NCBI GenBank assembly: GCA_001714685.2
Contig: MDTP02000063.1
Location: 1-36,359 of the forward strand
Direction of reading: 5' to 3'
Length of the DNA: 36,359 bases
Source of the DNA: Methanosarcina sp. Ant1
GTDB taxonomy: Archaea; Halobacteriota; Methanosarcinia; Methanosarcinales; Methanosarcinaceae
How positions within the stretch are numbered: the first letter of the stretch is position 1; each line of letters starts with the position of its first letter. The notes beneath the pieces are model-generated. The model was given only the letters and a program-made list of their open reading frames with translations. It was not told the DNA's origin and did no database searches. Shown here piece after piece: positions 5,397-29,739 of this stretch. The position numbers were made by a program, and so were the translations under genes.

Positions 5397-5821
5397 GTTG
5401 AAAGTAATTATACCGTTGAAACGTGATCGAGCCAAAAAGAAAATGTCAATTCTGAATGTGGTTTCCCACATTAAATATTTTCAAATATTATATATGTTGT
5501 ATCACAATCAGAAAGTGGCTCTAAATTACCCACTCGAAATAGTTAAGAGCTGAAATTTCTTTCTACTCATTTATCCCAAAATATCTTGGCACTACATCCA
5601 CCAAATAATAGAGAACGACCAATATATTCCAAAGTATGGGTTTTGATTGTGCTTTTGAATCGCAGTCCTAGTTTGGAAAGTACAAATTTATACTATAAAT
5701 GCTAAAACTAATTGTACAAAAAGACATGAATAGGATCACAAAGGGACAAGCTCCTCAAAGAATTAGAAGCAAAAATTAAAAAGTTTATTATCGTACATGC
5801 TGTAGTGTCGAGGCTTTTTTA
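5397..5821. other. Non-coding gap between the MprF remnant and prsW
   Basis: No gene or recognisable MprF continuation is visible. The stretch is AT-rich. TATA-like sequences around 5686-5698 (ATTTATACTATAAAT) could drive the protease gene at 5822. Confidence 0.3.
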
Positions 5822-12463: not shown

Positions 12464-15185
<2,722 letters not shown>

Positions 15186-15220: not shown

Positions 15221-15292
15221 AGTCAGAAGTGAGAATCGAACTCACATAATTCCGGGTTGCAGCCGGAAGCATAGCCACTCTGCCATTCTGAC
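15221..15292 (-). tRNA. tRNA-Cys (anticodon GCA)
   Basis: A full cloverleaf is visible. The acceptor stem GTCAGAA/TTCTGAC has discriminator U (the tRNA-Cys identity base), the D stem is GCA/TGC, the anticodon stem TCCGG/CCGGA encloses loop CTGCAAC with anticodon GCA, and the T stem is GTGAG/CTCAC. It spans 72 nt with no encoded CCA and no intron. It is the first gene downstream of a promoter carrying two palindromic operators and is immediately followed by the SepCysS gene, whose substrate is this tRNA once charged with phosphoserine. Confidence 0.95.
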
Positions 15293-15314: not shown

Positions 15315-15348
15315 TTCACAATTGTGACAGCATCATCACAATTGTGAT
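15315..15348. promoter_or_regulatory. Double palindromic operator in the tRNA-Cys/SepCysS promoter
   Basis: Two copies of the 14-bp palindrome lie at 15315-15328 (TTCACAATTGTGAC) and 15335-15348 (ATCACAATTGTGAT), 20 bp apart centre to centre, so on the same helix face. Reading in the tRNA direction, a TATA-like AAATATTTATA (about 15352-15364) precedes both sites, so they cover the region from just below TATA to around the start of transcription. That is a repressor arrangement. The same palindrome precedes nifS, the HTH regulator and cysK. Confidence 0.75.
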
Positions 15349-15458: not shown

Positions 15459-16373
15459 TCAATTTCCGCTGATCTCAAGCATTCTGTCCAGAGCTTTTTT
15501 TGCTTTCACTCTTATATGCTCAGGAACATGGATCTCGTATTCCATATTTTGAAGACTGTTAAGGATGGACTCGAGAGTGATTTTTTTCATATTATAGCAA
15601 AAAGCCTTCTCTGACGCAGGATAAAATTTTTTGTCCGGATATTTTCTTTTCAGATTTTGAACAACTTCTCTTTCGGTTCCTATTATAAATTCCGTAGAAC
15701 CTGATTTTTCAGCCTCTTTTACAATTCCGGAGGTGCTGAGAATGTTGTCTGCAAGGTTCAGGACTTCAGGCCTGCACTCAGGATGTGCAAGAAATTCTGC
15801 ATCAGGATGCATTTTTTGCAATTCTTTTATATTCTCATCACTGATGTTGTCATGAACATGGCAGAATCCGGGCCAGAGATGTATCTTTTTGTCGGTGTGG
15901 AGGGATACAAATGCTCCCAGATTTTTGTCAGGGATAAAAATAATTTCCCGGTTTTCAATAGAATTTACCACATTTATTGCATTTGCAGACGTGCAGCAGA
16001 TATCAGATTCCGCTTTTACTGCGGCCGAACTGTTTACATAGCACACGACAGCTGCTTCCGGATTTTTTTCTTTTGCATCCCGGAGAGCCTGCACAGTGAC
16101 CATATCCGCCATCGGACAACCTGCATCTGGTACAGGTAAAAGGACTAGCTTTTCAGGGGAAATAATTGATGCCGACTCTGCCATGAAATGGACACCTGCA
16201 AAGACTATAACCTCAGCTTTTGAATTCACTGCTGCCCTGCAGAGGGAAAGGGAATCCGCAACAAAATCCGCAACTTCCTGTACTTCCTTGCGTGTGTAAA
16301 AATGTGCAAGGATTATCGCGTGCCTTTCTTCTTTAAGTTTTTTTATTTCTTCTGTAATTTCCCAATTTTCCAT
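15459..16373 (-). CDS. nadA: Quinolinate synthase
   Basis: The 304-residue [4Fe-4S] enzyme condenses iminoaspartate with dihydroxyacetone phosphate to quinolinate in NAD synthesis. Cluster and active-site cysteines are in ESDICCTSANA, LAHPECRPEV and EKAFCYNMKK. AIILAHFYTRKEVQEVADF, VFAGVHFMAES and WPGFCHVHDNI complete the family pattern. ATG 16373 is chosen because GAGGAA lies 9 nt upstream. The frame is open 6 codons further, but only to a TTG. No nadB or nadC is nearby. Instead it closes a reverse-strand series with a cysteine desulfurase, an IscU scaffold and an E1-like protein, suggesting that cluster assembly for NadA is one purpose of that unit. Confidence 0.95.
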   Translation of the reverse strand: MENWEITEEIKKLKEERHAIILAHFYTRKEVQEVADFVADSLSLCRAAVNSKAEVIVFAGVHFMAESASIISPEKLVLLPVPDAGCPMADMVTVQALRDAKEKNPEAAVVCYVNSSAAVKAESDICCTSANAINVVNSIENREIIFIPDKNLGAFVSLHTDKKIHLWPGFCHVHDNISDENIKELQKMHPDAEFLAHPECRPEVLNLADNILSTSGIVKEAEKSGSTEFIIGTEREVVQNLKRKYPDKKFYPASEKAFCYNMKKITLESILNSLQNMEYEIHVPEHIRVKAKKALDRMLEISGN

Positions 16374-16392
16374 AATAATCTTATTCCTCAAG

Positions 16393-16443: not shown

Positions 16444-17175
16444 TTACCGTTTTTCATTAATTCCACATACCGGACAATTTTCTGTCTTATTAACATTTAG
16501 TTCGCTAAAAGAGCACGAAAGACCGTCCCACAACAAGAGGCGATTTTCCAGAAGCTTTCCCTGTCCCGTTAAGTATTTAATCGCTTCATTTGCCTGAATT
16601 GTGCCTATTACTCCTGGGGTTGTTCCCAGTACCGGAAATACTTCTTTTTTAAATGAACTAGGGAAAATACAGTAAAGGCATGGGGTTTTTCCTGGGATTA
16701 TTGTTGTTGCCTGACCTCTGTACCCTGAGACCGCACCGTGAATAAGGGGTATTTTTCGTTCAACTGCAAGCCTGTTCAAAACATGCCTTGTATCAAAATT
16801 GTCCAGCGCGTCTATGATCAGGTCACAAGGAGGAACTAATGAGCCTGCATTTTCATCCGTTATCTTTTCCTTGATTGTCTCTACTTTTATTTCAGGATTC
16901 ATAGAAAGCAGTTTGTCTGCTGCGGATTTTATCTTATCTCTTCCAATATCCCTTTCATGGTGGAGAAACTGTCTGTTTAGATTGCTGGGGTCTACTGTAT
17001 CAAAATCTGCAATTATTATTTTCCCTACCCCTGCAACCGCAAGGTAGGTTGAGATCGGAGACCCTAATCCCCCTGCCCCAGCAACAAATACCCTTGCTTT
17101 TCTTAGTTTTTCCTGGCCCTCTTCCCCAAAAAGCATTATCTGCCGGATATACTTTTCAGATGCAATTTTCTCCAT
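16444..17175 (-). CDS. ThiF/MoeB/HesA-family E1-like adenylyltransferase
   Basis: The 243-residue protein adenylates the C-terminal Gly-Gly of a ubiquitin-fold sulfur carrier. The nucleotide-binding motif is AGAGGLGSP, with the catalytic Asp/Arg region in DFDTVDPSNLNRQFLH and DALDNFDTRHVLN. Two Cys pairs, TPCLYCIF and NCPVCG, form the structural zinc site. There is no C-terminal rhodanese domain. The sulfur-carrier partner (SAMP/ThiS/MoaD-like) is not in this window, so thiamine, molybdopterin or tRNA thiolation cannot be distinguished. GGAGAG precedes the ATG. It lies 47 nt after iscU, and sulfur supplied by the neighbouring desulfurase is the natural donor. Confidence 0.87.
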   Translation of the reverse strand: MEKIASEKYIRQIMLFGEEGQEKLRKARVFVAGAGGLGSPISTYLAVAGVGKIIIADFDTVDPSNLNRQFLHHERDIGRDKIKSAADKLLSMNPEIKVETIKEKITDENAGSLVPPCDLIIDALDNFDTRHVLNRLAVERKIPLIHGAVSGYRGQATTIIPGKTPCLYCIFPSSFKKEVFPVLGTTPGVIGTIQANEAIKYLTGQGKLLENRLLLWDGLSCSFSELNVNKTENCPVCGINEKR

Positions 17176-17222: not shown

Positions 17223-17612
17223 TTAGTCATTCCAGGGCTCAAGTCCTTTTTTTCTGAGATGATCGTTAATCGCCTCATGGATTGCTTCTTCTGCAAGCAT
17301 TGAACAGTGCATTTTTATCGGGGGGAGTCCATCAAGCGCTTCTGCAACTGCTTTGTTTGAAAGTTTCCAAGCTTCTTCCAGAGTCTTTCCTTTGATGAGT
17401 TCAGTTGCCATACTGCTTGATGCAATTGCAGCTCCACACCCAAAGGTCTGGAACTTCACGTCCGCAATCCGATCTCCTTCTACTTTAAGGAATATCTTCA
17501 TTATATCCCCGCACTTCGCATTTCCAACCTCTCCTATTCCGTCACTGTTTTCAATGCTCCCCATGTTTCTGGGATTTGAAAAATGGTCCATCACTTTAGC
17601 ACTATAATCCAT
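17223..17612 (-). CDS. iscU: Iron-sulfur cluster assembly scaffold IscU/NifU N-terminal type
   Basis: The 129-residue scaffold builds Fe-S clusters from sulfur delivered by the cysteine desulfurase encoded upstream. All three conserved cysteines are present: GNAKCGD, TFGCGAAIASSS and IKMHCSMLAEEA. SNPRNMG near the start is also characteristic. ATG 17612 is chosen because AGGAG lies just upstream and homologues begin MDYS.KVMDHF. The frame extends 9 codons further without support. It lies downstream of nifS, from which it is separated by the displaced nifS tail and about 110 nt, and precedes the E1-like gene. Confidence 0.95.
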   Translation of the reverse strand: MDYSAKVMDHFSNPRNMGSIENSDGIGEVGNAKCGDIMKIFLKVEGDRIADVKFQTFGCGAAIASSSMATELIKGKTLEEAWKLSNKAVAEALDGLPPIKMHCSMLAEEAIHEAINDHLRKKGLEPWND

Positions 17613-17628
17613 GAGTTCTCCTACATCG

Positions 17629-17712
17629 CTATTTTTCAATTTTCAGATTATTCAATAACAAGTTTTCTTCTTTCTCAAAGTTCCTCTGTAATTCTTCTGT
17701 TTTTCTTTTCAC
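17629..17712 (-). CDS. Possible 27-residue small ORF between nifS and iscU
   Basis: A GTG-started reverse frame, with GGTGAG about 4-9 nt upstream, encodes a highly charged, Lys/Glu/Leu/Asn-rich peptide (starting VKRKTEELQRNFEKEENLL). It sits within the transcript linking nifS and iscU and ends 16 nt before the iscU ATG. It may be a small helical peptide or chance. No family is recognised. Confidence 0.2.
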   Translation of the reverse strand: MKRKTEELQRNFEKEENLLLNNLKIEK

Positions 17713-17812: not shown

Positions 17813-17935
17813 CAGTACTTCACCAACTGGATCGAGAAATCATTTAGCTTCATTCCGATTTCAAAATACTTTCGGTTAAATGTTTGAAATCGTAATGAGG
17901 ATAGATGATTTTCTGATCCAGTTGGTGAAGTACTG
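17813..17935. mobile_element. 123-bp MITE-like palindromic element inserted in the 3' end of nifS
   Basis: The ends are perfect 21-bp inverted repeats (17813-17833 and 17915-17935, beginning CAGTACTTCACC). The inverted similarity continues imperfectly through almost the whole element to a short central loop. It is flanked by 5-bp direct repeats, TATTC at 17808-17812 and 17936-17940. It has no coding capacity of its own, as expected of a non-autonomous element mobilised in trans. Removing the element plus one TATTC joins the codons for EDVN directly to RVLEVLPEIVQ, recovering a normal desulfurase C-terminus. Confidence 0.85.
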
Positions 17936-19037
17936 TATTCACGTCTTCTTGGGTATTCATCTTTCCAAGGCTCAACCTCAAAGAACCGTGAACTATTTCA
18001 TGCGGAACTCCACAGGCTGTAAGCACATGCGAGGGTTCGAGAGAAGAAGAGTTACAAGCGCTTCCTGTGGATGCAAAAACCCCTTTCGCGTTTAAAAGAA
18101 GCAAGAGAGATTCCCCCTCTATATATTCAAAAGTTACATTTACGTTGTTTGCAAGCCTTTTTATGGGATGTCCATTGAGATGGGTTTTAGGGATCTTCAG
18201 AAGGTCCTTTATGAGGCGCTCTCTCATCTCCAGCAGGGTTTTATCCGATTCTCCAATTTCGCCCACAGCAAGCTCTATAGCTTTCCCAAGACCTGCAATA
18301 GCTGGGACATTCTCGGTTCCTGCCCTGCGTTTTCTTTCCTGAGCCCCGCCGTGAAGAAGTATTTCTATTTTTGTCCCTTTTCTTATGTAGAGCGCCCCGC
18401 AACCCTTAGGTCCCTGGAATTTATGTCCTGAAAGGGATAGAAGGTCAATATTCATTTTTTGGACATCTATAGGGACGTGGCCTATTGCCTGAACCGCATC
18501 CGTATGGAAATATATCCTGTTCTCTCTTGCGATTTTTCCTATTTGGTCGACAGGCTGAATTGTCCCTATCTCGTTGTTTGCAAGCATTATGGAAATGAGT
18601 ATCGTATCATCCCGGATTACGTTCTTCAGATCCTCAGGCGATACCATTCCATATTTATCCACAGGGAGGTATGTTACCTCAAATCCCTGTCCTTCCAGCC
18701 ATTTACAGGCATGCAGGACGGCATGGTGTTCGATTGAGGAGGTAATTATGTGTTTTCCTTTATTCCGGTTTGCAAAGGCTATCCCCTTTATTGCCCAGTT
18801 ATCGGATTCGGTACCTCCTGATGTAAAATAAATCTCATTTTCTTCAGCACCGATGGCATAAGCAACCCTTTTTCTTGCTTTTTCGACTGCATGTTTTGAG
18901 GTTTTCCCCAGATCATATATAGAAGAAGGATTTCCGAAATTTTCTGTCAGGTAGGGAATCATCTCTTCGACAACCTCTTTCCTTACAGGAGTTGTAGCAG
19001 AGTTATCCATGTAAATGGTCATATTTTCAACTGTCAC
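17850..19037 (-). CDS. nifS: Cysteine desulfurase (NifS/IscS) with element-derived C-terminus
   Basis: This PLP enzyme takes sulfur from cysteine as a persulfide for Fe-S assembly and thiolation. The start region MTIYMDNSATTPV, the PLP lysine in LSLSGHKFQGPKG and the catalytic cysteine loop GVFASTGSACNSSSLEP are intact. The last 28 residues (after EDVN) are encoded by an inserted 123-bp element. They replace the family tail, whose sequence survives just downstream. The length is about 395 residues, nearly unchanged. GTG 19035-19037 is chosen because GGTG lies upstream; ATG 19022 is the alternative. The frame is open to 19079, but that would run through the palindromic operator, so the longer start is unlikely. 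First gene of the nifS-iscU-thiF-nadA unit. Confidence 0.9.
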   Translation of the reverse strand: MTVENMTIYMDNSATTPVRKEVVEEMIPYLTENFGNPSSIYDLGKTSKHAVEKARKRVAYAIGAEENEIYFTSGGTESDNWAIKGIAFANRNKGKHIITSSIEHHAVLHACKWLEGQGFEVTYLPVDKYGMVSPEDLKNVIRDDTILISIMLANNEIGTIQPVDQIGKIARENRIYFHTDAVQAIGHVPIDVQKMNIDLLSLSGHKFQGPKGCGALYIRKGTKIEILLHGGAQERKRRAGTENVPAIAGLGKAIELAVGEIGESDKTLLEMRERLIKDLLKIPKTHLNGHPIKRLANNVNVTFEYIEGESLLLLLNAKGVFASTGSACNSSSLEPSHVLTACGVPHEIVHGSLRLSLGKMNTQEDVNTVLHQLDQKIIYPHYDFKHLTESILKSE

Positions 19038-19046
19038 ACCTACACC

Positions 19047-19079
19047 TTCACAATTGTGAATAATCATAACAATTGTCAC
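19047..19079. promoter_or_regulatory. Double palindromic operator in the nifS promoter
   Basis: A perfect TTCACAATTGTGAA lies at 19047-19060 and a weaker copy, ATAACAATTGTCAC (10 of 14 matches), at 19066-19079, 19 bp apart centre to centre. In the nifS direction an A/T-rich TATA-like stretch (GATAAAACTTAAATAG, about 19079-19096) lies immediately before them. The sites therefore overlap the expected transcription start, as in the tRNA-Cys promoter. Confidence 0.75.
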
Positions 19080-19170
19080 TATTTAAGTTTTATCGTGGAA
19101 TGCATCGGGTGAAACCGACAAACTCTTAAAAGCTGGCCGTTTTTTAGAAATCATTAATATGCGATCAATC

Positions 19171-19286
19171 TTGTTGTTATTATTGTTATTGTTATCGTTA
19201 TTGTTATCGTTATTGTTATCGTTATTGTTATCGTTATTGTTATCGTTATTGTTATCGTTATCGTTATCGTTATTGTTATTATTATT
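19171..19286. repeat. Hexanucleotide repeat (GTTATY)n between divergent promoters
   Basis: About 115 bp consist almost only of GTTATT and GTTATC hexamers, largely alternating as a 12-bp unit (GTTATCGTTATT). It lies exactly between the divergent TATA boxes of nifS (about 19083) and the HTH regulator (about 19301-19312). The forward frame through it would encode a run of leucines and serines, which is not a credible protein. Confidence 0.9.
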
Positions 19287-19300
19287 TTTTACACTGATAA

Positions 19301-19343
19301 TAAATATATATGTACATAAGATATATTCGTTCTCAATTGTGAA
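19301..19343 (+). promoter_or_regulatory. Promoter and palindromic operator of the HTH regulator
   Basis: TATA box TAAATATATA (19301-19310) is followed about 30 bp later by TTCTCAATTGTGAA (19330-19343), which differs from the consensus palindrome at one base. The operator covers the predicted start of transcription and ends about 20 nt before the regulator start codon, suggesting autorepression. Confidence 0.7.
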
Positions 19344-19363
19344 ACTTCAAAGTGATGGTGATT

Positions 19364-19720
19364 ATGGAAACTCCGTGTCAGAAGATTGTGTGGGATCTGG
19401 TCCCCGCAATAAGGGCCAGTCTTGCAATCGAACTTGTAAAAAAAGGACAGTCACAGGCAACGTCAGCAAAGTTGCTGGGGATTGCTCCGTCGGCAGTTTC
19501 CCAGTATATTTCGGGAAAAAGAGGGTACAGGATCGAGTTTCAGGGCGAGACGAAAGAATTGATCGAAAAACTCGCTCAGGACTTGATCGACAATAAAGCC
19601 GAAGATTTTGTGGTAAGGATATGTAAGATCTGTGTAAGTGCAAGAGGAATTGAGAGTAACTGCAATAGCAGTTGTGGTCCCGAAGAGTCAGACAATAAAA
19701 CAGTGGAACCTGAAAAATAA
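19364..19720 (+). CDS. Small HTH transcriptional regulator with C-terminal four-cysteine motif
   Basis: The 118-residue protein resembles the archaeal HTH family of COG2522. The start PCQKIVWDLVPAIRASLAIEL precedes an HTH (about 28-54) containing SQATSAKLLGIAPSAVSQYI and SGKRG. The C-terminal part has Cys87-x2-Cys90-x9-Cys100-x3-Cys104, a plausible Fe-S, zinc or thiol-sensing site, with Cys5 also available. ATG 19364 is chosen because GGTGATT lies directly upstream; GTG 19352 and ATG 19355 are in frame. It is divergent from nifS and upstream of cysK. The palindrome in its own promoter recurs before nifS, tRNA-Cys and cysK, so I infer it is the local cysteine/sulfur regulator. The ligand is unknown. 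Confidence 0.8.
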   Translation: METPCQKIVWDLVPAIRASLAIELVKKGQSQATSAKLLGIAPSAVSQYISGKRGYRIEFQGETKELIEKLAQDLIDNKAEDFVVRICKICVSARGIESNCNSSCGPEESDNKTVEPEK

Positions 19721-19795: not shown

Positions 19796-19831
19796 TATAT
19801 ATTTAAGGTAAGATAAATTCACAATTGTGAA
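19796..19831 (+). promoter_or_regulatory. cysK promoter with palindromic operator
   Basis: TATA box TATATATTTAA (19796-19806) is followed by a perfect TTCACAATTGTGAA (19818-19831) centred about 24 bp downstream, directly on the expected start of transcription. The leader to the cysK start would be about 210-250 nt, unusually long for this organism. Confidence 0.75.
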
Positions 19832-20074
19832 TCTTCCATAAATTGCTTTATGTTACTATGTGATTAGTAGTTCTGAATTGCAAAATTTCACGCGATTTGA
19901 AATGCTCAAGATAAATGTAGTGAAGCCTGAAAAAGGTTTGAGTGACAAAACATACATGACTGGCAATTTATAATATAGCCTGGAACTTAAGCTCTGGAAC
20001 GAATTAAATTACATAGAATGAACGAATAAAATTACATGGAATCTAAAAACAAACTGTGGGAAGAAGGCGATGGT

Positions 20075-21001
20075 ATGGGACGAATTTACTCCGACATAAC
20101 CTGGACAATAGGTAGCACGCCCCTCGTTCGGTTAAACCATATGACAAAAGGTCTACATGCTGATGTGATAGTTAAAGTAGAGTCCTTTAACCCGTTGGGA
20201 AGTGTAAAGGACAGAATTGGATTGGCAATGATCGAAGAAGCCGAACGCGAAGGGAAGATAAAAGCTGGCACTACCATAGTTGAACCCACTAGCGGTAACA
20301 CTGGTATTGCACTCGCAGGCGTGTGCGCTGCCCGTGGCTATAAGCTCATACTGGTCATGCCTGAGACAATGACTATCGAAAGGAGAAAACTGCTAAAGGC
20401 TCTAGGAGCAGAGCTCGTCCTGACACCCGGAACTGAAGGAATGAGAGGCGCGATCAGTAAAGCAGAACAAATGGCTGCAGAAGATCCAACGCTCTACTTC
20501 ATACCCCAGCAATTCCGGAACCCTGCAAACCCGGAAATCCACCGCAGGACGACGGCCGAGGAAATATGGAAAGATACTGACGGCAAGGTGGATGTGATTG
20601 TAGCAGGCGTGGGAACAGGTGGAACCATTACAGGTGTTGCCAGCGCTATCAAAAAAAGGAAACCTACTTTCAAGGCGATTGCAGTCGAACCTGCCGAATC
20701 TCCAGTACTCAGCGGCGGAAGTCCGGGGCCGCACAGGATCCAGGGAATCGGTGCAGGGTTCATTCCTGAAGTACTCAAGCTTGACCTGGTCGATGAAATA
20801 ATTGAGGTTACTGGAGACAATGCCGCTGCCACAGCCAGACGATTGGCAAAGGAAGAAGGCATCCTTGCAGGCATATCTTCAGGCGCAGCTACATATGCAG
20901 CACTGCAGATTGCATCCAGGGCGGAAATGAGCGGGAAAATGATTGTTGTCATCTTACCGGATACGGGAGAGCGTTATCTGAGTACCGATCTTTTTGACTG
21001 A
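20075..21001 (+). CDS. cysK: Cysteine synthase A (O-acetylserine sulfhydrylase)
   Basis: This PLP enzyme makes cysteine from O-acetylserine and sulfide. It has 308 residues from the chosen ATG. The PLP lysine is in [12 protein letters not shown], the substrate loop is [10 protein letters not shown], the phosphate cup is [10 protein letters not shown] and the C-terminal [10 protein letters not shown] is conserved. ATG 20075 (MGRIYSDI) matches the usual start of CysK proteins. The frame is open to ATG 20036, which has no Shine-Dalgarno sequence. cysE follows after 32 nt. CysK/CysE are mostly bacterial enzymes, and in Methanosarcina this pair has been regarded as acquired from bacteria. With SepCysS nearby the cell has two routes to cysteine. 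Confidence 0.95.
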
Positions 21002-21033
21002 TCTTTTTGATTATTAATACTGGAAGATTTCAA

Positions 21034-21990
21034 ATGGGAATCAGGGAAGATATCAGGACAGTTTTTGAAAAAGACCCTGCAGCAATGTCTACATTGGAGG
21101 TAATCTGCTGCTATCCCGGTCTGCACGCTATCTGGATGCATCGGATAGCGCATTTTCTCTGGGACAAACACTTCTTTTTTCTTGCCCGTTTGCTGTCCCA
21201 TATATCGAGGATGCTTACAGGGATTGAAATCCACCCCGGAGCAAAGCTTGGAAAACGGGTATTTATTGATCACGGATCCGGAGTGGTAATTGGGGAAACT
21301 GCTGAGGTCGGCGATGACGTCCTCATATACATGGGAGTTGTACTTGGCGGGACAGCCCTTGAGAGGACAAAACGCCATCCTACTATTGAAAACGATGTCG
21401 TTCTCGGTTCAGGTGCGATTGTACTCGGGCCAATTACTATCGGAAGAGGGGCTAAAGTAGGCGCTGGTTCGGTTGTGATCAGGCCAGTTCCACCTGGAGC
21501 TACTGTCGTAGGAGTCCCTGCCAGAATTGCAGAGCCACAACCCTCCGTATCTGCAGGGCAACTGGATCATAATAAGTTACCTGACCCCATGCTTAGCGTG
21601 GTAAGCCAGATGCTTGACAGATTGAGCAGGCTAGAAGAAAAGTTTCAGGCACAAAGATATACATCCGTGTATAGAACACCTTTACAAAAGAGCGTTCCTA
21701 AAAAAGATGAGCAAATTTATTCCCAGCTAAGAGAAGTAATCGATCCTGAAGTAGGTATAGATATTGTCAAGATGGGTATGGTCAAAGAGGTAATTGTGGA
21801 CGGAGTAAATGTAGAAGTAAACCTTGTATTGACAACAAATATCTGCCCTATGGCAGAATACCTCAAGGATCAGGTAAGGCGGAAAGTTCTGAGCGTTGGC
21901 GGGATAGAAAAAGTGAGTGTTAATATCCTTGACGAGCCCTGGAGTTGGGATCGATCCAAAGAACAAACACAAGATCAACAGTCCACCTGA
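21034..21990 (+). CDS. cysE: Serine O-acetyltransferase fused to a C-terminal DUF59/MIP18-like domain
   Basis: The protein has 318 residues. The N-terminal ~180 are a complete CysE: helical start ([14 protein letters not shown]) and a left-handed beta-helix with [33 protein letters not shown] and [16 protein letters not shown]. It acetylates serine for CysK. After a linker (about 185-225), residues about 228-310 form a DUF59/MIP18/PaaD-like domain ([20 protein letters not shown], with a cysteine in [11 protein letters not shown] and a C-terminal [16 protein letters not shown]). Such domains act in Fe-S cluster maturation. The ORF is open to a TTG at 21007, but GGAAGAT before ATG 21034 fixes the start. 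It is cotranscribed with cysK. Confidence 0.93.
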
Positions 21991-25029: not shown

Positions 25030-25348
25030 CTATCCCCACCGATATGCATTTTTTGCAAAGGAATCTGAAAGATTTAAATCGTTTGACAAAAAAGGGAAAA
25101 AATATGCATGACAAGCCTTTTTGATAAATCCTTATCAGAAGAATCCTTCCAATAAATTTAATTTTAAATGTTATTATTAAAAGGCCAAAGTGATTGGGGC
25201 AGGCGTTCATTGGTCTTAAACGTATATAGGAATAGAACACTCTATTTATTTATATGTCATTTTTCACAATAATGTATACATAAAATCTCAAATGGCTTAA
25301 ATGATATATCAAAACACCCGAAAAACTAAAAAAAATAGGGGAGTTTAT

Positions 25349-26974
25349 ATGAGATATGGAGTTGCAATTGACCTGGGAACAAGCGGGTATCGAGCTCAGA
25401 AGATTAACCTTGATACTGAAGAGATCCGAAGAACGGTAATGACTTTAAGGAACCCTCTTCCCGGAGCGAATGTGATGGACCACATGGACTTCGCAATTCA
25501 CTATGGTCAGGATCTTGTGCACGGGCTTTCCATAAATGCAGTAAAGAATCTAATTCAGGCTCTTGATTTGAAAAGCGAAGAACTTAAGAGACTTTCAATT
25601 TGTGGAAATCCTATCCAGCTATCCATCTTCCAGGGAATCAGCATTGAAGACCTGGCCTACGCAGGGGAACGAAAGAAAAAGAAGTACAATATACAGGAGC
25701 AGAACAGGGATGCGAGAATCGTACATAGCGATAAAATTCCGGGGCTTGAAGATTTTGATTGTGAGGTCGTAGTCCCCCCCTCAATAAAACACGAAGTCGG
25801 GGCCGACGCTCTTGCCTTAATAGAAAAATCGGGAATGCTCGATAGTGACGAAATTTCAATTGCTACGGATTACGGAACAAATGCAGAGATGGCCCTTAAA
25901 GTAAACGATATAATTTACACGGGTTCTGCGGCTGCCGGCCCTGCCCTTGAGGGGCAGCAGATAAAACATGGAAGCCTTGCATCTCCTTACTCAATTTCAG
26001 ACTTTGAATTCGAGGACGGAGCATTAAGGAATTACGTATTGAATGAAGAGATGGAACCTGCCCTTGGAGATCTTGTAGATCCGGCAACCGGAAACATCCT
26101 TGAAAAAGGTATTATCGAAGCCAAAGCGATTACAGGCACAGGCGTTATAGCCTTGATAGAGGAAGCAATAAGGCACGGCCTTGTAGAGCTTCCCAAAGTT
26201 AAGACTCCGGACGGACTCATCCACATGCAAAACAGGATAAATTTCTCTGAAAATGATCTGAAAGAAGCCGGAAAAGCTATAGGTGCAATTCGTGCAGGGC
26301 ATATTACGCTCTGTGCAGCTGCAGGTATCGAACTGAAAGACATCGATGTTGCTTACATGGCAGGAGCTGCAGGCACCTATATGGACGCAGCAAAAGCCCA
26401 GAAAATCGGTTTGATCCCGTACTCCACAGGAAGAATTTGCCAGATCGGAAATACTTCACTTGCATTAGCCCGCGAAGTCCTGCTTTCGGAAGAGAGACTT
26501 TGGGAGCTCCAGGGTATTGCAAACAAGATATTAGACACACATATAATGTTTGCGACTTCCCCGCAATTCAGTGATGTGTATGTTCTCGAACTTGCATATT
26601 GGGAAGAAGGTATGCCCTTTAAAATGTTTAAGAAATTCCTTAAAAAGAAAGGGCTTCCCGGTCTCGATGATCCTATAGAAAATCCTGTTATTGAGAGGCG
26701 TGTAAAGAAAGACATCCCTGTGCTTGGAGAAGAGGGGCTGCATATACTGGAAAGAGTCGGGACATATATGACTATGGTCGTCGACTGCCCCGAATGCAAG
26801 AAGTGCATAAAAGTCTGCCCCAATGATGCCATAACAATTGACGAAGAAAACAGGGTTATGATAAGTACTGATCTCTGTGAAGGTTCCCACTGCCAGAAGT
26901 GCATAAGGGCCTGCCCTCCGGATAAATTCAACTGGGAAAATCTTAAAGTCTTCAAACCGCAACAGCAAGAATGA
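25349..26974 (+). CDS. ramA: RamA-type corrinoid protein reductive activase (copy 1)
   Basis: The 541-residue iron-sulfur ATPase reductively activates the Co(II) corrinoid of methyltransferase corrinoid proteins to Co(I), as RamA does for methylamine methanogenesis. The N-terminal part is an ASKHA/DUF4445-type ATPase (MRYGVAIDLGTSGYRAQKIN; TDYGTNAEMALKVND; YMAGAAGTYMDAAKAQKIG). The C-terminal ~60 residues hold two [4Fe-4S] ferredoxin motifs (CPECKKCIKVCP and CEGSHCQKCIRACP). ATG 25349 has GGGGAG upstream; the open frame extends 16 codons further, without support. A TATA-like TTTATTTATATG lies at about 25245. No methyltransferase genes are adjacent, so its client corrinoid protein cannot be named. 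A paralogue follows 1.1 kb downstream. Confidence 0.9.
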   Translation: MRYGVAIDLGTSGYRAQKINLDTEEIRRTVMTLRNPLPGANVMDHMDFAIHYGQDLVHGLSINAVKNLIQALDLKSEELKRLSICGNPIQLSIFQGISIEDLAYAGERKKKKYNIQEQNRDARIVHSDKIPGLEDFDCEVVVPPSIKHEVGADALALIEKSGMLDSDEISIATDYGTNAEMALKVNDIIYTGSAAAGPALEGQQIKHGSLASPYSISDFEFEDGALRNYVLNEEMEPALGDLVDPATGNILEKGIIEAKAITGTGVIALIEEAIRHGLVELPKVKTPDGLIHMQNRINFSENDLKEAGKAIGAIRAGHITLCAAAGIELKDIDVAYMAGAAGTYMDAAKAQKIGLIPYSTGRICQIGNTSLALAREVLLSEERLWELQGIANKILDTHIMFATSPQFSDVYVLELAYWEEGMPFKMFKKFLKKKGLPGLDDPIENPVIERRVKKDIPVLGEEGLHILERVGTYMTMVVDCPECKKCIKVCPNDAITIDEENRVMISTDLCEGSHCQKCIRACPPDKFNWENLKVFKPQQQE

Positions 26975-27566: not shown

Positions 27567-28119
27567 TACTGAATCCAAAAATTAAAGCTTATTATTTATT
27601 AGTCTTTAAATAACTAATCATTTTTTGAAGATCCTGAGGAAAGATGGTCCATCAATAATGGATTTATTTTTTCAAGATTCTTAAATAATGGTATTCAGCT
27701 CCCATTTTCCTCTTTGCGTACGCTTTAATTTTCTGTACACAGGTAAGCTTAGAAACATTTGCGAATAAATAAAATTACTCAAAATGAAATTAAAACATTT
27801 AATAACATTTATGTCTTTTAGAACATCAACCATATTAATGCATGATTATTAGCTGTCTGAAAAAGGGAAAACGGGCAGGACAAGCTATTTTCAATAATTG
27901 TATCAGAATAAGTCTCTTTAAAAAAGAATTTTTTCATATTATTATTAAAAGGCTAAAAAGTGATTATTAGATGTATTAATTGATTTTAAAAATATATAGA
28001 AGAATAAATCGATCTATTTATTTATATGTTATTTTCAAAATAATACATACATAAAGTTTCAAATTGCTTGAATAATGCGTCAAAATACTCGACAAAATAA
28101 GAAAAATGGGGGAGTTTGT
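27567..28119. other. Non-coding DNA with the copy-2 ramA promoter
   Basis: No gene is seen up to about 27938. From 27939 (TTATTATTAAAAGGC) to the start codon the sequence is recognisably homologous to 25171-25348 before ramA copy 1, including the TTTATTTATATG TATA region (28017-28027) and the GGGGGAG ribosome-binding site. The duplication therefore covered promoter and leader. Confidence 0.6.
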
Positions 28120-29739
28120 ATGAGGTATGGAGCTGCCATTGACCTGGGAACAAGCGGGTACAGAGCTCAGAAGATTAACCTTGATACTGAAGAAATCCAA
28201 AGAACGGCAATTACTTTAAGGAACCCTCTTCCCGGAGCGAATGTAATGAACCACGTGGATTTCGCAATCCAGTATGGACAGGACCTTGCGCACGGGCTTT
28301 CAATAAATGCAGTAAAGAATCTAATTCAGGCTCTTGATGTGGAAATAGGAGAAATTGAGAGACTTTCAATCTGTGGGAATCCTATCCACCTATCCATCTT
28401 CCAGGGAATCACCATTGAAGACCTTGCCTATGCAGGGGAGCGAAAGAAAAAGAAGTACGATATACAGGAACAGAACAGGAACGCGAGAATCGTACATAGC
28501 AATGAAATTCCGGGACTTGAAGAATTTGATTGTGAAGTTGTAATTCCTCCCGCAATTAAACATGAAGTTGGAGCCGATGCCCTGGCCCTGATAATCAAAT
28601 CGGGAATGCTTGATAGGGATGAAATTTCAATTGCTACGGACTACGGGACAATTTCGTTGAAAGTAAACGATATAATTTATACGGGTTGTGCAGCTACCGG
28701 CCCTGCCCTTGAGGGACAGCAGATAAAACATGGAAGCCTTGCATCCCCTTACACTATCTCGGACTTTGAATTCGAGGACGGCGCATTAAGGAATTACGTA
28801 TTGAATGAAAAAATGGAATCTGTTCCAGGGGATCTCGTAAATCCGATAACTGGAGACACCCTTGAAAAAGGTAACATCGAAGCAAGAGGGATTACAGGTA
28901 CAGGCGTTATAGCTCTGATTGAGAAGGCAATAAGATACGGCTTTGTAGAGATTCCCAAGGTTAAGACTCCGGACGGACTAATCCACCTCCAAAATGGGAT
29001 CGATTTCTCTGAAAGAGACCTTAAAGAAGCCGGAAAAGCTATAGGTGCTATTCGTGCAGGACACATTACTCTCTGTGCAGTTGCAGGTATCGAAATGTCA
29101 GATATTGAGACTGCTTACATGGCAGGAGCTGCAGGCACTTATATGGACGCGGCAAAAGCCCAGAAAATTGGTTTGGTCCCTTACTCCACAGGAAAAGTCT
29201 GCCAGCTTGGAAATACTTCACTTGCAGTGGCTCGTGAAATCCTGCTTTCAGAATCGAGGCTGTGGGAACTCCAGGATATTGCAAATCAGATGTCAGATAC
29301 ACACATAATGCTTGCGACTACCTCCGAATTCCGGGATGCGTATATTCTCGAAATTGCATATTGGGAGGAGGGTATGCCTTTTAAAATGTTTAAGAAATAC
29401 CTTAAAAAGAAAGGGCTTCCCGGTCTCGATGATCCTATAGACAATCCTGTTATTGAGAGGCGTGTAAAGAGAGATATTCCTGTACATGGGGAAGAAGGGC
29501 TGCATATACTGGAAAGAACAGGGACATATATGACCATGCTTGTCGAGTGCCCCGAATGCCGGAAATGTATCAAGGTCTGCCCCAATGACTCCATAACAAT
29601 TGATGAAGAAAATAGGTCTATTATAATAGCTACTGATCTCTGTGAAGGTGTCCACTGCCAGAAATGCCTGAAGACCTGCCCTCCTGACAAATTTAACTGG
29701 AAAAGTCTCAAAGTTTTCGAACCACAACAGCACAAATGA
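28120..29739 (+). CDS. RamA-type corrinoid protein reductive activase (copy 2)
   Basis: The 539-residue close paralogue of the preceding gene is identical at 52 of the first 60 residues. The ATPase motifs (IDLGTSGYRAQKIN, YMAGAAGTYMDAAKAQKIG) and both ferredoxin clusters (CPECRKCIKVCP and CEGVHCQKCLKTCP) are intact, so it should be functional. Relative to copy 1 a three-residue stretch after ATDYGT is missing and one residue is gained near the second cluster. Start ATG 28120 has GGGGGAG upstream. It stands alone with its own promoter. Methanosarcina keep several activases of this family for different methyltransferase systems; which one this serves cannot be told here. Confidence 0.88.
   Translation: MRYGAAIDLGTSGYRAQKINLDTEEIQRTAITLRNPLPGANVMNHVDFAIQYGQDLAHGLSINAVKNLIQALDVEIGEIERLSICGNPIHLSIFQGITIEDLAYAGERKKKKYDIQEQNRNARIVHSNEIPGLEEFDCEVVIPPAIKHEVGADALALIIKSGMLDRDEISIATDYGTISLKVNDIIYTGCAATGPALEGQQIKHGSLASPYTISDFEFEDGALRNYVLNEKMESVPGDLVNPITGDTLEKGNIEARGITGTGVIALIEKAIRYGFVEIPKVKTPDGLIHLQNGIDFSERDLKEAGKAIGAIRAGHITLCAVAGIEMSDIETAYMAGAAGTYMDAAKAQKIGLVPYSTGKVCQLGNTSLAVAREILLSESRLWELQDIANQMSDTHIMLATTSEFRDAYILEIAYWEEGMPFKMFKKYLKKKGLPGLDDPIDNPVIERRVKRDIPVHGEEGLHILERTGTYMTMLVECPECRKCIKVCPNDSITIDEENRSIIIATDLCEGVHCQKCLKTCPPDKFNWKSLKVFEPQQHK

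Follow-up and report, generated by a model that had tools for sequence, protein, structure and literature searches.

A cysteine-containing helix-turn-helix protein as a candidate autorepressor of sulfur and Fe-S genes in Methanosarcina and other archaea

A DNA stretch of 36,359 nucleotides from Methanosarcina sp. Ant1 (the window) encodes a small cysteine-containing helix-turn-helix (HTH) protein that probably represses its own gene together with genes that mobilise sulfur, assemble Fe-S clusters and supply cysteine. Its four-cysteine site most likely holds an Fe-S cluster, and we give this reading as a whole a probability of about 0.55. Sequence comparison places the regulator in a widespread archaeal family that has no Pfam or NCBIfam model, and identifies a palindrome as the predicted operator of this family. 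The regulator is likely to be an archaeal counterpart of bacterial Fe-S sensors such as IscR. Iron and sulfur are needed by methanogens in very large amounts, and the literature that we searched names no transcription factor that controls isc, suf or cysteine genes in these organisms. The family is a testable candidate for this role, with a defined operator, cysteines and target genes, in Methanosarcina strains that are tractable.

The regulator and its fold

The regulator gene and the protein features discussed below are:

19364–19720, plus strand: cysteine-HTH regulator, 118 residues (open reading frame and homologue comparison)
19376–19378, plus strand: codon of Cys5, the best-conserved cysteine of the family (147/150 homologues)
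19454–19513, plus strand: helix-turn-helix, residues 31–50 (sub-cutoff Pfam HTH_3 match, AlphaFold2 model and covariation of residue 41)
19622–19633, plus strand: Cys87-x2-Cys90 (each 141/150)
19661–19663, plus strand: Cys100 (123/140)
19673–19675, plus strand: Cys104, mostly lineage-specific (24/127)

The gene is real and occupies exactly the reading frame that had been proposed for it. Homologues with approximately 83–93% identity are found throughout Methanosarcina. The start METPCQ is the same across the genus, and therefore the ATG at 19364, not the upstream GTG at 19352, is the correct start.

The HTH named in the original prediction is real, though remote. The match to HTH_3 (PF01381, the XRE/Cro-CI HTH) scores 17.9 bits, below the Pfam gathering score of 23, and the AlphaFold2 model contains helices 31–38 and 42–50 arranged as an HTH. 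A fold search against the PDB returned no match with an E-value below 0.001. The best structural alignment (VIA-align), with a Z-score of 6.6 over 48 residues, was to the DNA-binding domain of DeoR, and in the model this similarity reflects the common HTH arrangement only. A sequence search of the PDB gave a single hit, a designed repeat protein that matched weakly (E 0.035). None of the curated Pfam and NCBIfam models describes the family.

Conserved cysteines

The translation of the gene contains cysteines at positions 5, 87, 90, 100 and 104. Their conservation was counted in 151 distinct short family members, with denominators of 150, 150, 140 and 127 according to the alignment column. The cluster originally proposed, residues 87, 90, 100 and 104, is present in the protein, but Cys104 does not belong to the conserved set and Cys5 had been overlooked. 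The conserved four are Cys5, Cys87, Cys90 and Cys100, which, judged from the alignment, are likely to form a four-ligand site. An N-terminal cysteine and a CxxC are retained in all 29 homologues that carry the ACAATTGT core at most 100 bp upstream, and this check of cysteine conservation among homologues with the palindrome does not refute the original prediction.

The features typical of the family, namely a cysteine near the N-terminus, an HTH resembling SAVSQYxSGKRG, a CxxC tail and a third cysteine about ten residues further on, are all present in the regulator. Many lineages have a second CxxC further along, and the spacing of the cysteine pairs varies widely. The suf-linked copies from Micrarchaeota lack the first CxxC and have Cys5, a cysteine near position 65 and a late CxxC, again four cysteines; the ligand set therefore shifts between lineages. 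In the AlphaFold2 model, the cysteine tail (residues 97–116) is disordered, with pLDDT below 50.

A paralogue in the same genome (G000:C9:7552–7833; L002, L083) is 35% identical to the regulator and contains Cys5 and two CxxC pairs. It has no operator upstream, and similar copies occur in relatives (L123, L126). At another locus (L030:634–1827, minus strand), the regulator frame continues into a downstream LarE-like gene as a fused open reading frame of 397 residues, which may reflect either a genuine fusion or an error in the frame.

A predicted palindromic operator at the probable transcription start

The predicted operators of the window, which are palindromic and listed without a strand, and the probable TATA box of the regulator are:

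15315–15328: predicted operator copy 1 upstream of tRNA-Cys and SepCysS, a close variant of TTCACAATTGTGAA (palindrome scan)
15335–15348: predicted operator copy 2 at the same promoter, a close variant of TTCACAATTGTGAA, 20 bp from copy 1 (palindrome scan)
19047–19060: predicted operator upstream of nifS, exact TTCACAATTGTGAA (palindrome scan and genome count)
19067–19078: second, weaker palindrome at nifS that resembles the operator, TAACAATTGTCA, 19 bp from the exact site (palindrome scan)
19303–19312, plus strand: probable TATA box for the regulator gene, AAATATATAT, with its centre about 29 bp upstream of that of the operator (sequence and family-wide spacing)
19330–19343: predicted operator in the promoter of the regulator itself, TTCTCAATTGTGAA, with one mismatch (palindrome scan)
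19818–19831: predicted operator upstream of cysK, exact TTCACAATTGTGAA (palindrome scan and genome count)

The shared palindrome that had been reported in the regulator promoter is present there, though with one mismatch. The 12-mer TCACAATTGTGA occurs in six exact copies in the 4.29-Mb genome, four in the window and two on contig C3, where a control count gives an expectation of about 0.16 (P ~2e-8). These exact whole-genome counts replaced a count within the window at three mismatches, which was not significant (7 found, 3.6 expected). Other palindromes of the genome with one mismatch are mostly intragenic and were excluded from the targets. Exact sites also occur in seven other genomes, where almost all of them are near the regulator gene. 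Many predicted targets have two operators, approximately 19–29 bp apart.

The palindrome accompanies the regulator gene in distant lineages. The ACAATTGT core is located at most 100 bp upstream of 20 of the 43 other Halobacteriota regulators (0.36 in dinucleotide shuffles) and of 7 of the 20 regulators found by a search of the phylum Micrarchaeota (0.07 in shuffles). Five micrarchaeal genomes contain a single copy of TAACAATTGTTA, at the regulator promoter, against a background of about 0.07 per genome in 146 genomes of the phylum.

The outer base pair of the operator differs between lineages: it has the form TTCACAATTGTGAA in Methanosarcina and Methanomicrobiales, and TTAACAATTGTTAA in Micrarchaeota and some others. 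Residue 41, where the recognition helix (42–50) begins, is alanine in all 32 proteins with the C-type operator TCACAATTGTGA, and threonine or serine in all 17 with the A-type operator TAACAATTGTTA, so that it covaries with operator type in 49 of 49 cases. A tree built without the column of residue 41 implies about three changes of this residue; one of them is a nested reversal (L204, L252, L253), and the operator changes with it. An independent-pairs test provides one or two pairs only, too few to reach significance. The covariation is suggestive of direct recognition of the operator by the protein; with only two or three changes in the phylogeny, it is not a statistically independent proof.

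TATA-like hexamers in 57 distinct promoters peak 20–29 bp upstream of the operator centre. Archaeal transcription starts about 25 bp downstream of the TATA box, and the operator is therefore predicted to sit on the transcription start. Repression, including that of the regulator's own gene, is the natural reading of this position. A simple repeat of TTATTGTTATCG-like units occupies positions 19170–19290, between nifS and the regulator, and was absent from those promoter sequences of relatives that were inspected.

Predicted regulon

The genes surrounding the regulator are:

13818–15185, minus strand: SepCysS, Sep-tRNA:Cys-tRNA synthase, predicted target (domain match)
15221–15292, minus strand: tRNA-Cys (GCA), flanked by the operator pair and SepCysS (sequence)
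15459–16391, minus strand: NadA, quinolinate synthase, a [4Fe-4S] enzyme family (domain matches)
16444–17175, minus strand: ThiF/MoeB-like adenylyltransferase (domain matches)
17223–17639, minus strand: iscU/nifU scaffold, downstream of nifS (domain matches)
17850–19079, minus strand: nifS/iscS cysteine desulfurase, predicted target (NCBIfam NifS equivalog; conserved start MTIYMDN at 19022)
20036–21001, plus strand: cysK, cysteine synthase A, predicted target (cysK equivalog)
21007–21990, plus strand: cysE with a fused C-terminal FeS_assembly_P (MIP18/SufT-like) domain (domain matches)

The regulator thus lies between nifS and cysK, as had been described. The cysE fusion is unusual in connecting a serine acetyltransferase with Fe-S assembly.

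A sulfur or Fe-S gene is found within 3 kb of 115 of the 151 family members and of 12 of 74 control centres, a small control whose SufC class may also pick up other ABC ATPases. The neighbours within this distance include nifS (50), larE (41), nadA (29), fdhD (28), iscU (27), thiF/moeB (26) and cysK (21), among others. The 36 members with no listed sulfur gene within 3 kb include Thermoplasmata copies and the paralogue from the same genome. Genes of isc, suf, larE, fdhD, thiI and cysK adjoin family members in several archaeal groups, and the Methanomicrobiales copies are positioned opposite nifS-iscU and ahead of larE-fdhD. The predicted targets in methanogens mainly belong to cysteine and sulfur metabolism (cysK, SepCysS, O-acetylhomoserine sulfhydrylase, nifS, larE and thiI). 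In Micrarchaeota, the regulator is located directly upstream of sufC-sufB-sufD, in some loci also with sufS. In two such genomes, the only other exact site is either 11 bp before an FTR1 iron permease gene or before a superoxide dismutase-ferritin pair.

On contig C3 of the Methanosarcina genome, a radical SAM gene and an open reading frame of 100 residues with no Pfam match (L081:3551–4582 and 5436–5738) have operator pairs ahead of them, and SufS-like, FdhD and NifH-like genes are nearby. Both genes are probable further members of the regulon.

The operator core is present at most 80 bp upstream of 21 of 31 tRNA-Cys genes, none of 16 other tRNA genes and 1.5% of random windows; the tRNA genes come from loci chosen for the regulator or the operator, and the 31 may include near-duplicates, so that the fraction is not a genome-wide estimate. 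A BLAST search with tRNA-Cys over 30 genomes found matches in five and was too insensitive, and therefore the comparison rests on tRNA genes within the collected loci. Several of the remaining ten tRNA-Cys genes have degenerate palindromes, for example TTCACACATGTGAA. We speculate, at slightly less than even odds, that the regulator represents an ancient family of minimal Fe-S-sensing repressors in Halobacteriota and Micrarchaeota that would control Fe-S assembly and the tRNA-Cys gene, so that the supply of the tRNA used for decoding and cysteine synthesis would be set by Fe-S or sulfur status. Such control would be an unusual link from metabolic state to a single tRNA, and it fits lineages that make cysteine on tRNA-Cys via SepCysS.

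Proposed mechanism and alternatives

From the gene, its conserved cysteines, the operator and its position relative to the TATA box, the gene associations and the covariation of residue 41, all of them read from sequence, a mechanism of regulation can be put forward; its dimerisation, direct DNA binding, repression, Fe-S cofactor and direction of switching are what we infer. A dimer of the regulator would bind TTCACAATTGTGAA where transcription of the regulator gene, nifS-iscU, cysK-cysE and tRNA-Cys-SepCysS begins, and would block RNA polymerase. Cys5, Cys87, Cys90 and Cys100 may form one metal site beside the HTH, most likely with an Fe-S cluster. As long as the cluster is present, the target genes would stay repressed. 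Under a shortage of iron or sulfur, or after damage to the cluster, the apo form would release the operator and the genes would be turned on. The gene context strongly supports the earlier suggestion that the protein senses sulfur supply or Fe-S status, in that the operator is common to nifS, cysK, tRNA-Cys/SepCysS and the regulator's own gene, the neighbours are sulfur and Fe-S genes, and the micrarchaeal associations extend to sufCBD, superoxide dismutase-ferritin and iron permease; the ligand set then proposed is to be corrected, with Cys5 in place of Cys104.

It is unlikely that the same repressor, acting at the same operator, reads sulfur supply directly, with its cysteines serving as a thiol or persulfide switch or binding sulfide-derived sulfane sulfur. 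Such a sensor would agree with the predominance of cysteine and sulfur genes among the predicted methanogen targets and with the effect of deleting the orthologous iscSU2 of M. acetivorans, which lowers persulfide and not Fe-S content (PMC7585200). However, at least four conserved cysteines, including the distant N-terminal one, suit a metal site better than a two-cysteine switch. The micrarchaeal sites before SufCBD, superoxide dismutase-ferritin and the FTR1 permease point to iron and Fe-S biology, and because of these predicted targets an Fe-S cluster is favoured over a pure sulfur signal. The same association with suf, ferritin and iron permease argues for iron or Fe-S over structural zinc, in which case the HTH repressor would sense a small molecule such as cysteine, O-acetylserine or phosphoserine, or repress constitutively. 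The CxxC...CxxC spacing of many homologues does resemble zinc sites, and the haloarchaeal HTH-ThiN relatives, which presumably sense via ThiN, partly or wholly lack cysteines. Nevertheless, 118 residues leave no other domain for a ligand, and such wide variation in the spacing of the cysteine pairs is unusual for a structural zinc knuckle, which makes zinc quite improbable.

The operator is also found at many genes besides the regulator's own, and its binding by the regulator is a prediction; the palindrome might therefore belong to a different transcription factor, of which the cysteine-HTH protein would be merely one target. This is very improbable, given that the palindrome follows the regulator gene across lineages, down to the sole genomic copy in five micrarchaeal genomes, and that the residue at the start of the recognition helix tracks the outer base pair in every case, the nested reversal included.

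Relation to known regulators

The regulator is likely to work like IscR but by sequence is not a member of the IscR/Rrf2 family, and it shares the HTH, not the ThiN domain, with ThiR. The parallel to IscR that had been drawn for an unrelated archaeal family is upheld as a functional likeness based on the predicted regulon. The Rrf2 domain (PF02082) has no match in the regulator in Pfam or NCBIfam at E-values up to 1. IscR is likewise a small, cysteine-containing, autoregulated HTH protein of bacteria, encoded beside isc or suf genes, with a regulon of Fe-S assembly and iron genes, which here is predicted. The operator before the regulator's own gene and at nifS-iscU, and the regulator-sufCBD arrangement of Micrarchaeota, would correspond to IscR-like autoregulation and control of Fe-S assembly operons. 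Unlike IscR, the archaeal regulator has a different HTH and is predicted to control cysteine synthesis and tRNA-Cys. The cluster site of IscR is Cys3His, whereas the candidate ligands here are Cys5, Cys87-x2-Cys90 and Cys100.

The archaeal thiamine regulator ThiR, an HTH-ThiN protein, has a homologous N-terminal HTH. A search with the family profile finds haloarchaeal HTH-ThiN proteins of 300 residues with E-values of 1e-18 to 1e-9. In contrast to these, the 118-residue regulator lacks the ThiN domain (PF10120) in Pfam, which is present in one relative (L139), and its operator and gene context relate to sulfur and Fe-S, not thiamine. The haloarchaeal ThiR-like proteins lack Cys5 and the first CxxC, and have three late cysteines or none at all. 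SufR and SurR are winged-helix proteins that exert cysteine-based control of sulfur, Fe-S or redox genes. The regulator differs from them in its HTH and operator, and has no ArsR- or DeoR-type Pfam match.

In the literature searched, no paper uses COG2522 or arCOG00017, two possible names for the regulator's family. The regulator is undescribed in the literature searched, including papers on Fe-S, sulfur and expression in methanogens; most subscription journals lay outside this search. The nifS-iscU locus is orthologous in gene neighbourhood to the isc2 cluster of M. acetivorans (IscS2 MA2718, IscU2 MA2717), which is described as grouped with methionine and NAD biosynthesis genes; iscSU2 functions there as a desulfurase and scaffold pair, and persulfide levels change when it is lost (PMC7585200). 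The text consulted does not discuss the regulator or the operator. From gene numbering only, we infer that MA2719 is the M. acetivorans counterpart of the regulator.

Further observations

Contig C3 also encodes an HgcA-like corrinoid protein (L081:7838–9313) that scores 450 bits against an NCBIfam cutoff of 275 and is followed by a ferredoxin-like HgcB. The pair may represent mercury methylation genes in Methanosarcina, or contamination of the bin, which is estimated at 1.9%. In the window, positions 25301–26974 and 28075–29739 encode similar proteins of about 555 residues with ferredoxin-like cysteine motifs at their C-termini, apparently the result of a tandem duplication.
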